Assembly: GCA_021372375.1 (NCBI GenBank)
Contig: JAJFUN010000078.1
Location: forward strand, 1 to 64,000
DNA length: 64,000 bases
Reading direction: 5' to 3'
From: Pelosinus sp.
Lineage (GTDB): Bacteria > Bacillota > Negativicutes > Propionisporales > Propionisporaceae
In this document: piece after piece, positions 2,894 through 38,968 of the stretch
Layout of the letters: the number at the start of each line of letters is the position of its first letter
Numbering within the stretch: the stretch's first letter is position 1
Notes under the pieces: generated by a model
Databases searched by the model: none
Told to the model about the DNA's origin: nothing
Seen by the model: only the letters and a program-made list of their open reading frames with translations
Position numbers and translations under genes: made by a program

Positions 2894-3081
2894 GCATGTT
2901 TTTAAAAGCCTCCCCCTGTCGCTAAACGCGACATCCCCCTCGAAGAGGGAGACTAAAATAAAAGCCTCCATCCCTGAGGGAGGTGGCGCAAAGCGACGGA
3001 GGGAGTTCCTTCAGATGGGATTACAGTTAAACGGGGCTGTTCGCATTAGCAATAATACTAATGCGAACAGCCCCTTATTTT
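2891..3081. repeat. Dispersed repeat R2a (about 190 bp, two nested palindromes)
   Basis: Begins TAAGCATGTTTTTAAAAGCC and contains CCTGTCGCTAAACGCGACAT followed by CCCCTCGAAGAGGGAGACT, then GAGGGAGGTGGCGCAAAGCGACGG, and ends with a 17-bp perfect hairpin. A diverged full-length copy (R2b) is at 27964-28157. The half-element (CCGTCGCTTTGCGCCACCTCCC on the minus strand) resembles the inner arm of the R1 family, so the two families may be related. Confidence 0.85.
3033..3080. terminator. Strong hairpin terminator at the end of repeat R2a
   Basis: Arms 3033-3049 and 3058-3074 (GGGGCTGTTCGCATTAG and its complement) form a 17-bp perfect stem with an 8-base loop, followed by TTATTTTG. It lies between the convergent mop gene and the amino-sugar operon and could end both. 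Confidence 0.75.
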
Positions 3082-4780: not shown

Positions 4781-5920
4781 TTATTGTCTCCAATACTCCA
4801 ATTTACCACCAACAAAGGTTGCCCGCACGTTAATATCTTTATCAAAAATGGTTAAATCAGCGTCTTTTCCTACCGTGATGCTGCCTTTTCTTTGCTCAAG
4901 CCCCAAAAGGCGTGCCGGATTACTAGTTACCAATTGCACAGCCTTGTAAACAGGCAGCTTAGCATTGTTCATAAAATTATATACTGCCTTATTTAGCGTC
5001 AGCACACTTCCCGCAATTACACCATTACTTAACCGGGCTTCATTCTTGTTAACAAACACGGTTTGTCCGCCAAGATCATATTGCCCTTCGCCCAGCAAAC
5101 CCGCCCGCATAGCATCGGTTATCAGTATTATCTTATCCAGACCCTTCACTTTTAATAAAATGCGCTGCATCACCGGATGAACATGAACGTTATCAGCTAT
5201 TAATTCACAGGTAACTTCGCTGTCCATAGCGGCGCCAATCAGTCCGGGCTGGCGATGATTGAGCGGCGGCAAGGCGTTAAAAATATGCGTTACATGGCTT
5301 GCCCCACATTTAATAGCAGACATAGCTTCTTCATAAGCAGCGCTGCTATGTCCCAAGGAAACTACAATATTTTGTGCTTGGCACTTTTTTATAAAAGTTT
5401 CACTGCCTGTAAGCTCTGGCGCAATGGTGATAAGCCTAATTACATCAAGGTAAGGCTCTATTTTAGCATAGTCAAAGGCACTGATAAATTTTTCATCATG
5501 CGCTCCTTTATTTTTAGGATTGATAAACGGCCCCTCTACATTACAGCCTAAAATTTGCGCCCCTTCCTCTATTTTGCCGGCTATTCTAATCCGTGCCAAG
5601 GCAGCCTTGATTTTTGCAAATTCCATCGTCATCGTCGTCGGTAAAAATGCCGTAACCCCTGTACTAGGAAGCTTGCTGCGCATAATACTTAGAGCATTTC
5701 CCTCAGCATCCATGGTATCTGAGCCACTGCAGCCGTGTATATGAATATCAATAAAACCTGCAGCTAAAAAAGATTTTTTTGCATCAATAAATTCTTCTAT
5801 GCTATACTTGTCCAATTCACTTTGCGGTACAACCGCCCGTATTTTATCGGCAAAAATAACTGCCATATCTTCAAGCAGACCATCATCTGCGATAATTTTT
5901 GCGTTAACAATTGCTTTCAT
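4781..5920 (-). CDS. nagA: N-acetylglucosamine-6-phosphate deacetylase
   Basis: Amidohydrolase-fold enzyme removing acetate from GlcNAc-6-P. Visible features: the metal-binding HxH in DIHIHGCSGSDT, the conserved glutamate in CNVEGPFINPKNKGAH, GHSSAAYEEA, and HIFNALPPLNHRQPG, and a C-terminal strand with GKDADLTIFD typical of the amidohydrolase beta-sandwich. The 379-residue length is normal. The start at 5920 (MKAIVNAKII) is preferred to the upstream GTG at 5929 because AAGGGTGA sits 5 bases before it. Middle gene of the ROK-HAD-nagA-nagB operon. Confidence 0.95.
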   Translation of the reverse strand: MKAIVNAKIIADDGLLEDMAVIFADKIRAVVPQSELDKYSIEEFIDAKKSFLAAGFIDIHIHGCSGSDTMDAEGNALSIMRSKLPSTGVTAFLPTTMTMEFAKIKAALARIRIAGKIEEGAQILGCNVEGPFINPKNKGAHDEKFISAFDYAKIEPYLDVIRLITIAPELTGSETFIKKCQAQNIVVSLGHSSAAYEEAMSAIKCGASHVTHIFNALPPLNHRQPGLIGAAMDSEVTCELIADNVHVHPVMQRILLKVKGLDKIILITDAMRAGLLGEGQYDLGGQTVFVNKNEARLSNGVIAGSVLTLNKAVYNFMNNAKLPVYKAVQLVTSNPARLLGLEQRKGSITVGKDADLTIFDKDINVRATFVGGKLEYWRQ

Positions 5921-5951
5921 TTCGCTCACCCTTTACGCATAATTAAGAATT

Positions 5952-6779
5952 TCACTCGGCTAAAATAAACTTATTGATAGCCAGACTTACACCATCCTCG
6001 TCATTTGATGCTGTTATATAATCAGCTCGCTCTTTGACTTCCTCTGATGCATTGCCCATAGCCACGCCCAGACCGGCATATTCGATCATGGATAAATCAT
6101 TTTGACTATCGCCGATAGTCATGATTTCTTCCTTGCTAATTCCATATACCTTGGCCAGCATGGCTACCGCCCGACCTTTAGATACACCATGGCGGGTAAT
6201 TTCGATATTGCGAAGACCGGAATTGACAATTTCGAGTTCCGGGATGTTTTTGAGTTCATTTCTGAGTTTTGCTAACAAATCCGTATTACTATGAAAAATC
6301 TCGCATTTTACAATATTGTCTTTTTCCTGGTCAACAACCTTTCGGCACCGCTGCCAAGAAAACAGATATTCAGTTTTAATTTTATCGCTTCTAATTCTTC
6401 GGAGCTTTGCAATTAAGTAAAACAGTTTAAAGAGCAGATAGCCATAATAAAACTTTTCCGGTGTACTAAAGCAAGGCTTAATGCGGTACTTACTAAATAC
6501 TCTGAGCAGCTTTTGCAAAACCTCTGCGCCAAGTACACTTTTATAGATTACATTATTATTTTCTTGAATAAAAGCCCCGTTTGAGGCAATAACCGCCGAC
6601 CTCACGCCAAGCAGGCTTGAGTAAAACTGCGCATCAGTATACATTCGGCCTGTACTGATTACAATATGTACACCCTTATCATGCGCCATTTTTAAACTTT
6701 GTTTGGTACTTTCCGCGACAACACGCCGGGAATTCAGGAGTGTACCATCTACATCAACACAGACTAATTTATATGTCAT
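5952..6779 (-). CDS. HAD-superfamily (Cof-type) sugar-phosphate phosphatase
   Basis: A 275-residue type IIB HAD hydrolase. Motif I is VCVDVDGTLLN at the N-terminus, motif II ISTGRM, and motif III/IV GDSQNDLSMIEYAGLGVAMGN near the C-terminus. The start at MTYKLVCVDVDG (6779) matches family N-termini and has GGGA 7 bases upstream; an in-frame ATG at 6791 is the alternative. It overlaps the ROK kinase gene by about 11 bp. A role in dephosphorylating an amino-sugar phosphate intermediate is inferred from context only. Confidence 0.85.
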   Translation of the reverse strand: MTYKLVCVDVDGTLLNSRRVVAESTKQSLKMAHDKGVHIVISTGRMYTDAQFYSSLLGVRSAVIASNGAFIQENNNVIYKSVLGAEVLQKLLRVFSKYRIKPCFSTPEKFYYGYLLFKLFYLIAKLRRIRSDKIKTEYLFSWQRCRKVVDQEKDNIVKCEIFHSNTDLLAKLRNELKNIPELEIVNSGLRNIEITRHGVSKGRAVAMLAKVYGISKEEIMTIGDSQNDLSMIEYAGLGVAMGNASEEVKERADYITASNDEDGVSLAINKFILAE

Positions 6780-9906: not shown

Positions 9907-10014
9907 AATTCCCCTCTTGAGAGGAGTGCCCGATAGGGCGGGGTGTGTCAGCGACTGCAAGCTCGAATCAACACACCCCGTCGCTTACGCGCCACCCCTC
10001 TCTAGAGGGGAATT
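9907..10014. repeat. Palindromic repeat R1b (MITE-like)
   Basis: A 108-bp copy of the R1 family with the same arm order as R1a: left arm with CCCGATAGGGC, right arm with GTCGCTTACGCGCC, both ending in AATTCCCCTC. The roughly 18-base loop between the arms differs from that of R1a. It lies in the convergent gap between nadE and the zinc-ribbon gene. Confidence 0.85.
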
Positions 10015-27963: not shown

Positions 27964-28157
27964 CTAAGCATGTTTTAAAAGCTCCGCCTGTCGCTAAAAG
28001 GGACATCCCCCTCGAAGAAGGAGACTGAAATTAAGAGCCTCCACCCATGAGGGAGGTGGCGTAAAGCGCCGGAGGGAGTTGCTTCAGAAGAAATTACTGT
28101 TTGTTAAACAGGGTTGTTCGCATTAAAGATAATATTAATGCAGCAGTCCTGTTTTGC
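27964..28157. repeat. Dispersed repeat R2b
   Basis: A second, diverged copy of the ~190-bp R2 element: TAAGCATGTTTTAAAAGC start, CCCCTCGAAGAAGGAGACT, GAGGGAGGTGGCGTAAAGCG, GGAGGGAGTTGCTTCAGA, and a decayed terminal hairpin around GTTGTTCGCATTA. Same orientation as R2a. The flanking gap up to 28279 shows no gene. Confidence 0.85.
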
Positions 28158-38206: not shown

Positions 38207-38446
38207 TGCAAACGCCCCCCCTGCTTAAAACTATGCTTGACCCACAACGTTACCATTATAATCCAAAAAGATGTAAGCCTTAAAAATAGCGGATTTTCGA
38301 GATTTTAAAAAATTATAATTTGTAACGTATTTTATTACCATTAACGGTAAATGGTAATAAGTAATTCAAACATTCTCGCCGCTCTGACCGAATTTTTAAA
38401 ACCGCTTTATGACCCACCACTTCCCCCAATTAGGCGTGTATTTATC

Positions 38447-38968
38447 AAGTCCCCTCTCGAGAGGGGTGGCACGGAGTGACGGGGTGTGTTGTATTTTGCC
38501 ATTAGGGAGTAGCCATTTTGTATAGCAACAAACTTGCATATGACCCGATTCTAAAAAAACTGGCGCGGGACTTACGAAAAAACAGTACCTTATCTGAAAT
38601 ATTACTTTGGCAGCATTTGAAACACTCATATATGGGGTATGATTTTCACCGACAAAAGCCCATTAGCAAATATATAGTTGACTTCTTTTGTCCCACTTTA
38701 ATGTTGGCTATCGAAATTGATGGTGTTACACATAACGAAAAGTCCAATGAAGATAAAATACGACAACAACACTTAGAACAGTTGGGCATTTCTTTTTTAC
38801 GTTTTTCTGATAATGAGGTTAAAACGAATTTATTAGGGGTGTTATCATCAATTCAGAGCTTTATTGTAGATAACAGGTAGACATATATTATACAGGGATT
38901 ATTTTCGATCGAAATACAAAGGCAACACACCCCGTCGCTCACGCGCCACCCCTCTCTAGAGGGGACTT
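38447..38968. mobile_element. DUF559-carrying element with R1 terminal inverted repeats
   Basis: Left end AAGTCCCCTCTCGAGAGGGG continues to GGGGTGTGTTG at 38491. The right end, from CAACACACCCCGTC at 38933 to AGAGGGGACTT at 38968, is its inverted copy. Together they enclose only the DUF559 gene. The same ends occur without a gene at 1189-1296 and 9907-10014. This looks like a parent element with its non-autonomous derivatives. No target-site duplication was established. Confidence 0.7.
38518..38880 (+). CDS. DUF559 (Vsr/MTES_1575-like) endonuclease-domain protein
   Basis: A 120-residue protein of the DUF559 group, related to very-short-patch-repair endonucleases: KLARDLRKNSTLSEILLWQH at the N-terminus, YDFHRQKPISKYIVDFFCP, then LAIEIDGVTHNEK with acidic residues of a restriction-endonuclease-like active site, and LGISFLRFSDNEV at the end. 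Starts with TTG behind AGGGAG. The gene is enclosed by inverted R1 ends, making it a candidate mobilising nuclease; that role is inference. Confidence 0.85.
   Translation: MYSNKLAYDPILKKLARDLRKNSTLSEILLWQHLKHSYMGYDFHRQKPISKYIVDFFCPTLMLAIEIDGVTHNEKSNEDKIRQQHLEQLGISFLRFSDNEVKTNLLGVLSSIQSFIVDNR

Follow-up and report, generated by a model that had tools for sequence, protein, structure and literature searches.

A DUF559 nuclease gene between triplex-coded inverted ends: a candidate gene-bearing form of a widespread bacterial miniature element

The DUF559 box and its inverted ends

We analysed a stretch of 64,000 nucleotides from Pelosinus sp. (the window), in which positions 38447–38968 form a compact box of one DUF559 gene and two inverted ends. 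The gene (38518–38880, + strand, TTG start) encodes a protein of 120 aa that is predicted to be a PD-(D/E)XK nuclease of EDxHD/Vsr-like type and matches PF04480 with E=3.1e-29 and 101.5 bits, passing the Pfam cut-off of 20.6. It is the sole gene within the box, as the preliminary description had it, and a Pfam search of the box found no HUH transposase. That the box is enclosed by inverted ends was confirmed by arm complementarity, which reaches 93% for the outer arms (38447–38473 and 38942–38968) and 87% for the inner arms (38474–38496 and 38918–38940). Specifically, the left end (38447–38491, + strand) comprises the stem CCCCTCTCGAGAGGGG, the linker hairpin GGCACGGAGTGAC and the third strand GGGGTGTG, and the inverted right end (− strand) comprises the stem CCCCTCTAGAGAGGGG, the linker GGCGCGTGAGCGAC and the third strand GGGGTGTG; the former had been placed correctly, and the latter, previously given as 38933–38968, actually spans 38923–38968 (46 bp). 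No target-site duplication was seen at the box, whose flanking bases belong to the inverted repeat.

The AlphaFold2 model of the protein (pLDDT 91) and its conserved residues, namely R20, E27, W31, Q46, D55-F56-C58, E66, D68-G69, and H72 in the numbering of the window protein, indicate that it is an EDxHD/Vsr-like PD-(D/E)XK nuclease with invariant D, E, G and H residues. The best solved match in Foldseek is 3HRL (E=1.8e-7), which is NGO0050, a gonococcal DUF559 protein. Additionally, the catalytic domain of the homing endonuclease I-Bth0305I (3R3P) is recovered by both Foldseek (E=5e-5) and hmmsearch (E=7.9e-5), and Vsr itself (1VSR) gives a weak structural match (E=0.31). DUF559 and Vsr/VsrA share one superfamily, and an earlier paper links the YcjD profile to Vsr (PMC1189080). 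Unlike Vsr, the window gene has no methyltransferase among the neighbour genes scanned on either side. PADLOC returned weak defence-nuclease matches only, and a role in defence was set aside.

Both ends of the box belong to a repeat family, here called R1. Each R1 end reads, from 5′ to 3′, CCCCTCTNNAGAGGGG, a short linker hairpin and then GGGGTGTG; the linker is GCCC...GGGC in type A and GCGCG...GCGAC in type B. GGGGTGTG matches exactly the antiparallel third strand that a purine-motif triplex on GAGAGGGG would require, with G on G.C and T on A.T. A stem with an antiparallel third strand (G.GC, T/A.AT), which can be read directly from R1, is also the hallmark of the BoxC/PIT/TM repeats, and on this reading of the sequence the R1 ends are intrastrand-triplex motifs of that known orphan class. 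The transposon-like ends proposed earlier keep their inverted arrangement and their recurrent gene-free copies, the part that falls being their nature as ordinary TIRs. Like R1, the BoxC/PIT/TM repeats (Hoyne and Maher; Holder et al. 2015, PMC4666352) have a stem, an antiparallel third strand, A/B linkers and inverted A+B pairs and lie between genes; they differ in the linker, which is 3 nt in E. coli and a longer hairpin in R1 and in the second family, R2. For the E. coli TM, triplex formation as single-stranded DNA was demonstrated by CD/NMR, and in published DMS footprinting a stable triplex was not seen in E. coli (PMC4666352). The R1 ends may form triplexes inside the cell.

Cognate repeat families and duplicated units

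The box ends had been described as recurring in short gene-free elements at 1189–1296 and 9907–10014. This recurrence is real, with the refinement that each element consists of one A end and one inverted B end, unlike the DUF559 box, which has a B-type end at both sides. The R1 stem pattern matches the window six times compared with 0.02 expected, and a triplex-motif scan gives nine matches compared with 0–1 in ten dinucleotide shuffles, which excludes chance. The source genome (3.54 Mb in 199 contigs, the window being contig C22) contains at least 65 B ends, 39 of one spacing and 26 of a second, and the reversed control pattern has 0 matches genome-wide. R1 shows the paired inverted palindromes with gene-free copies by which REPIN/RAYT systems are recognised. 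In the flanks L005–L034, many short R1 copies have extra common sequence beyond the hairpins (left ..ccagtattttgccttagtt, right aatttttaaatcacaactcttcaaagcctgc..), and the family is therefore longer, roughly 200 bp.

DUF559 occurs at four places in this genome: in the window, on C26, on C135 and, truncated, on C153. The window protein is 75% identical to the C26 copy and 37% identical to the C135 paralog, and the flanking repeats pair with the genes in a cognate manner. Specifically, R1 ends flank only the C22, C26 and C153 copies and R2 only C135, where R1 is absent and the gene is bounded by this second triplex family (CCTCCATC..GAGGGAGG + GGAGGGAG). R2 is present at no fewer than 40 places in the genome, with copies at 2908–3010 and 27982–28083 of the window. 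In the genus of G026, G055 and G065, DUF559 lies among R1 hairpins between genes of a conserved operon in three species, the G026 protein being 66% identical to that of the window. On C26 (2600–5600; L105), tip-to-tip A/B hairpin pairs stand between successive LPS-core genes with the DUF559 gene in the row, an arrangement resembling a cassette array; integron attC was considered for these tip-in pairs, which look like cassette junctions, and was rejected, as no GTTRRRY core could be made out by eye. The LPS-core genes beside the C26 copy would suit a host of Negativicutes type.

Both R1 copies and canonical DUF559 are absent from G001–G003, the other family members of the window genome. The expectation that a DUF559 gene accompanies R1 in every R1-rich genome is borne out in part: the R1 pattern occurs in ten genomes of the class, of which five have a canonical DUF559, as do roughly a fifth of the remaining 290 class genomes, and G063 has five R1-like sites and no canonical DUF559.

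Outside the window genome, near-identical hairpin–DUF559–hairpin units of ~550 bp are found at unrelated sites. G057 has two DUF559 boxes with essentially the same sequence from TTTCCGCCCC through GGGCGGGAAAA, which covers the whole hairpin-to-hairpin span; their flanks are unrelated, and no target duplication accompanies them. More units present in several copies, again with flanks that do not match, were seen in G057 and in G117, the latter having three DUF559 units, and G109 has a duplicated DUF559 gene without hairpin ends. A search for empty sites of the G057 copies within their own genus gave matches to tRNA and local repeats alone. An indel beside a DUF559 box common to G254 and G284 was tried as an R-type element and turned out to be another palindrome. 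A ~155-bp palindromic element next to a DUF559 box common to two related species is found in one of them (L262:1931–2097) and missing from the other (L263), and its sequence is unrelated to the triplex repeats.

The box in the window lies inside a larger unit (38231–~39060, + strand), which is 94–95% identical on C153 and of which only a decayed left part is found on C1. Its left outer inverted repeat CTATGCTTGACCCACAAC (38231–38248, + strand) has a right partner on C153 that is missing in the window. On C153 (3255–3974), the copy has this 18-bp outer inverted repeat on both sides and an apparent 9-bp target duplication, CCTTTAGCA, and therefore a conventional transposase can also carry the box. 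The window copy itself last moved inside the larger inverted-repeat element, as conventional-element cargo. Such a transposon signature, together with a left boundary common to the C153, C1 and window copies, would suit an account in which another agent (a DDE transposase in trans, or recombination) moves repeats and DUF559 alike, with DUF559 as a passenger. We consider this account distinctly improbable: the outer element is known from this genome alone, DUF559 and triplex ends are paired across phyla with differing end sequences, the duplicated units in other genomes stop at the triplex hairpins, and paralog-specific repeat pairing is unexpected for a passenger. On C153 the outer element interrupts the loop of a further triplex-type hairpin, with the DUF559 box as its cargo, and a C-rich sequence precedes the left part of the C153, window and C1 copies alike.

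DUF559 and triplex motifs across bacteria

We sampled 80 named DUF559 loci of many phyla among the matches listed in a scan of genome contigs; the query was a three-sequence alignment, and the sample is biased toward relatives of those three. A motif required a stem of 8 or more and a third strand, one mismatch being tolerated in each of these two parts, and both strands were searched. Motifs lie within 300 bp at 67 of the 80 loci, on both sides at 46, compared with 3.75% of random placements; at the other 13 no motif was detectable within this distance. The motif density is 6.84/kb up to 100 bp from the DUF559 domain, 2.97/kb at 100–200 bp and 0.02–0.08/kb beyond 2 kb. Among the controls, motifs accompany 25 of 458 other ORFs on the same contigs (5.5%), 5 of 166 ORFs of 90–200 aa and 1 of 160 dinucleotide-shuffled flanks, and the association of DUF559 loci relative to other ORFs has a Fisher odds ratio of 89 (p about 1e-50). 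A second set, from the window's class, has the motif at 21 of 28 DUF559 loci versus 6 of 54 distant segments.

The stems differ widely among lineages, and the third strand covaries with the stem. For instance, the Haemophilus motif is CCCCTCTTT..AAAGAGGGG + GGGGAGATTT, CCCCTCC + GGGGTGG occurs in several phyla, and members of the window's class have CCTTCCCCTC + GGATGAGGTG. Of 217 asymmetric stems, 33% are followed by an antiparallel third strand that is perfect (8/8); a parallel rule gives 9.7%, and tails reassigned among loci give 5.0%. The motifs also show polarity: 39 of the 46 two-sided loci have their nearest motifs arranged as a symmetric inverted pair, and in 27 the hairpin is outermost. 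For pairs below 55% identity, motif similarity correlates with protein similarity (Mantel r=0.20, p 0.0005), a correlation that still includes shared genome ancestry. Viral contigs gave no match to one DUF559 query, and phages only two distant DUF559 matches. The transposon/MITE logic of parent and derivative that had been proposed, with a nuclease in the usual transposase's place, holds up in the cognate pairing, the pan-bacterial association and the unit duplication; the last move of the window copy, as cargo of a larger element, departs from it.

YcjD of E. coli is a DUF559 protein, whose gene occupies the sapF-fabI locus in 3362 (62%) of 5426 complete E. coli genomes; the ycjD-minus strains examined have an RND efflux operon at this place, described as eefRABCD (PMC12817139). 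TMECO no. 9 (1351239–1351204) lies between ycjD and fabI. Among the E. coli matches listed, ycjD-plus strains have a median of 4 triplex-matching places and ycjD-minus strains 2 (p 0.009, kinship being ignored), and O157-type strains without ycjD retain motifs. One fixed locus in 62% of genomes is as expected for a domesticated gene, and VsrA, a Caulobacter DUF559 protein, is reported to cause SOS induction in cells without a cytosine methyltransferase and was proposed to be a Vsr-type mismatch enzyme (PMC12907096). Both points would agree with DUF559 being a Vsr-like repair enzyme and the nearby triplex palindromes being operators or damage hotspots kept in check. This housekeeping role seems very unlikely, as it leaves the inverted ends, the paralog-specific families, the gene-free pairs and the unit duplication unexplained, and the structural match to Vsr is weak.

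BoxC alleles at hrpB-mrcB carry either a pair or one collapsed hairpin, or lack the element, and in the last case about 20 bp of each flank is altered; at alx-sstT they carry a pair or a collapsed hairpin. No clean empty site for the DUF559 box was found among E. coli, the related-species alleles and the genus of G057. Short-flank replacement and hairpin collapse in alleles of E. coli and related species are what break repair would give, and they favour homing, in which DUF559 as a free-standing homing endonuclease cuts hairpin-like or gene-less sites, the box is copied by homologous repair, and the gene-free pairs represent decayed sites or targets rather than products of transposition. That I-Bth0305I, an EDxHD homing endonuclease, is the nearest mobile relative of solved structure, and that the G057 duplicate has no target duplication, points the same way. 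Homing should lead to an allelic or homologous destination, yet the sites that the copies occupy in G057 and G117 are unrelated, and more than 65 R1 and 40 R2 copies between genes indicate ectopic spread. Homing-type copying is the nearest rival, and passenger status the second; we judge the former to be unlikely. At E. coli flgF-flgG (L215:1601–1638), a triplex motif is present in some strains and K-12 strains differ by a stretch of similar size, which is a replacement, not an insertion. This site, hrpB-mrcB and alx-sstT were tried as clean insertions and rejected, being replaced or collapsed instead.

Proposed mechanism and relation to known systems

The box quite probably belongs to a pan-bacterial class of miniature mobile elements with triplex-coded ends and a DUF559 nuclease, and represents the form that carries the gene. 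We also favour, a little more cautiously, the general view that DUF559/YcjD and the intrastrand-triplex repeats constitute one bacterium-wide class of mobile elements, in which a free-standing EDxHD nuclease recognises the three-strand code of its cognate ends and spreads these ends without target duplication. Standing against this explanation are the 13 motif-less loci among the 80, the hairpin-less G109 duplicate, G063, the O157-type strains, the alleles that are not clean, the carriage of the window copy within a larger element with an apparent 9-bp target duplication, and the DMS footprinting (PMC4666352). In the mechanism we propose, a single-stranded or extruded end, arising in replication or transcription, would fold up as a hairpin with a third strand. 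DUF559 of the cognate type would recognise the shape and sequence of the folded end and nick or cut the hairpin base, and the freed or broken ends would be inserted or copied elsewhere, presumably by strand transfer or break repair. Insertion would leave no target duplication, often with tens of flank bases replaced, and the gene-free pairs (BoxC/PIT/TM/R1/R2) would be trans-mobilised derivatives. DUF559 would then be the enzyme that processes its cognate ends and drives their spread, and our data suggest that it is the long-missing engine spreading a very common bacterial repeat class.

In REPIN/RAYT systems, a one-gene nuclease is flanked by inverted palindromes, with many gene-free pairs, cognate families and intergenic spread; the RAYT (TnpA-REP) is an HUH Y1 transposase, and the REP ends carry GTAG/CGTC tags. 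The DUF559 box likewise has one nuclease gene, inverted palindromes, gene-free pairs and cognate families, but with a PD-(D/E)XK fold rather than HUH and a triplex code rather than GTAG/CGTC tags. It has the nuclease fold in common with EDxHD homing endonucleases such as I-Bth0305I, from which it differs in having no intron or intein and in its palindromic triplex ends and ectopic multicopy derivatives. The autonomous/non-autonomous logic and the inverted ends are as in DDE MITE/IS elements, whereas a DDE gene and a box target duplication are absent and the tips are hairpins. The box fits none of the tested families, as it has no HUH transposase (REPIN/RAYT), no target duplication of its own (DDE MITE/IS) and ectopic copies (homing genes); to our knowledge, the proposed DUF559/triplex-repeat class would be unlike any known IS family.

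Triplex-forming repeats occur in thousands of bacterial genomes and have been catalogued for about 25 years, and we know of no engine or function for them. The repeats and the DUF559 family are each known already; the new part is the link between them, which is absent from the open literature searched. No paper linking DUF559 to repeats was found in the open PMC literature, the scope of the search, beyond which lie preprints and subscription papers. A published survey of the surroundings of triplex motifs reports finding neither transposases nor integrases nor any other mobility activity, and Vsr, endonuclease and nuclease are not mentioned there (PMC4666352); the portions of the VsrA and YcjD papers covered by our search do not take up the repeats (PMC12907096, PMC1189080). 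If the proposed class is true, BoxC/PIT/TM and similar palindromes in Neisseria, Haemophilus, cyanobacteria, Bacteroidota, Chloroflexota and Bacillota would be accounted for. If DUF559 is the engine, an uncharacterised protein family and an orphan repeat class would explain each other, DNA triplexes would gain a plausible biological reader, and another nuclease type would disperse short repeats beside the HUH enzymes of REP elements; E. coli ycjD would offer a simple test bed.

DUF559 genes with hairpins were also observed in further gene contexts. In Haemophilus species (L143, L156 and L159, around 5900–6600), DUF559 and hairpins lie directly upstream of a putative glyS, apparently in the glyQ-glyS gap. 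In Deinococcus psychrotolerans (L103:1300–1900), a DUF559 box with near-perfect inverted ends stands in the phenylacetate operon, with paaD on one side and paaZ on the other.
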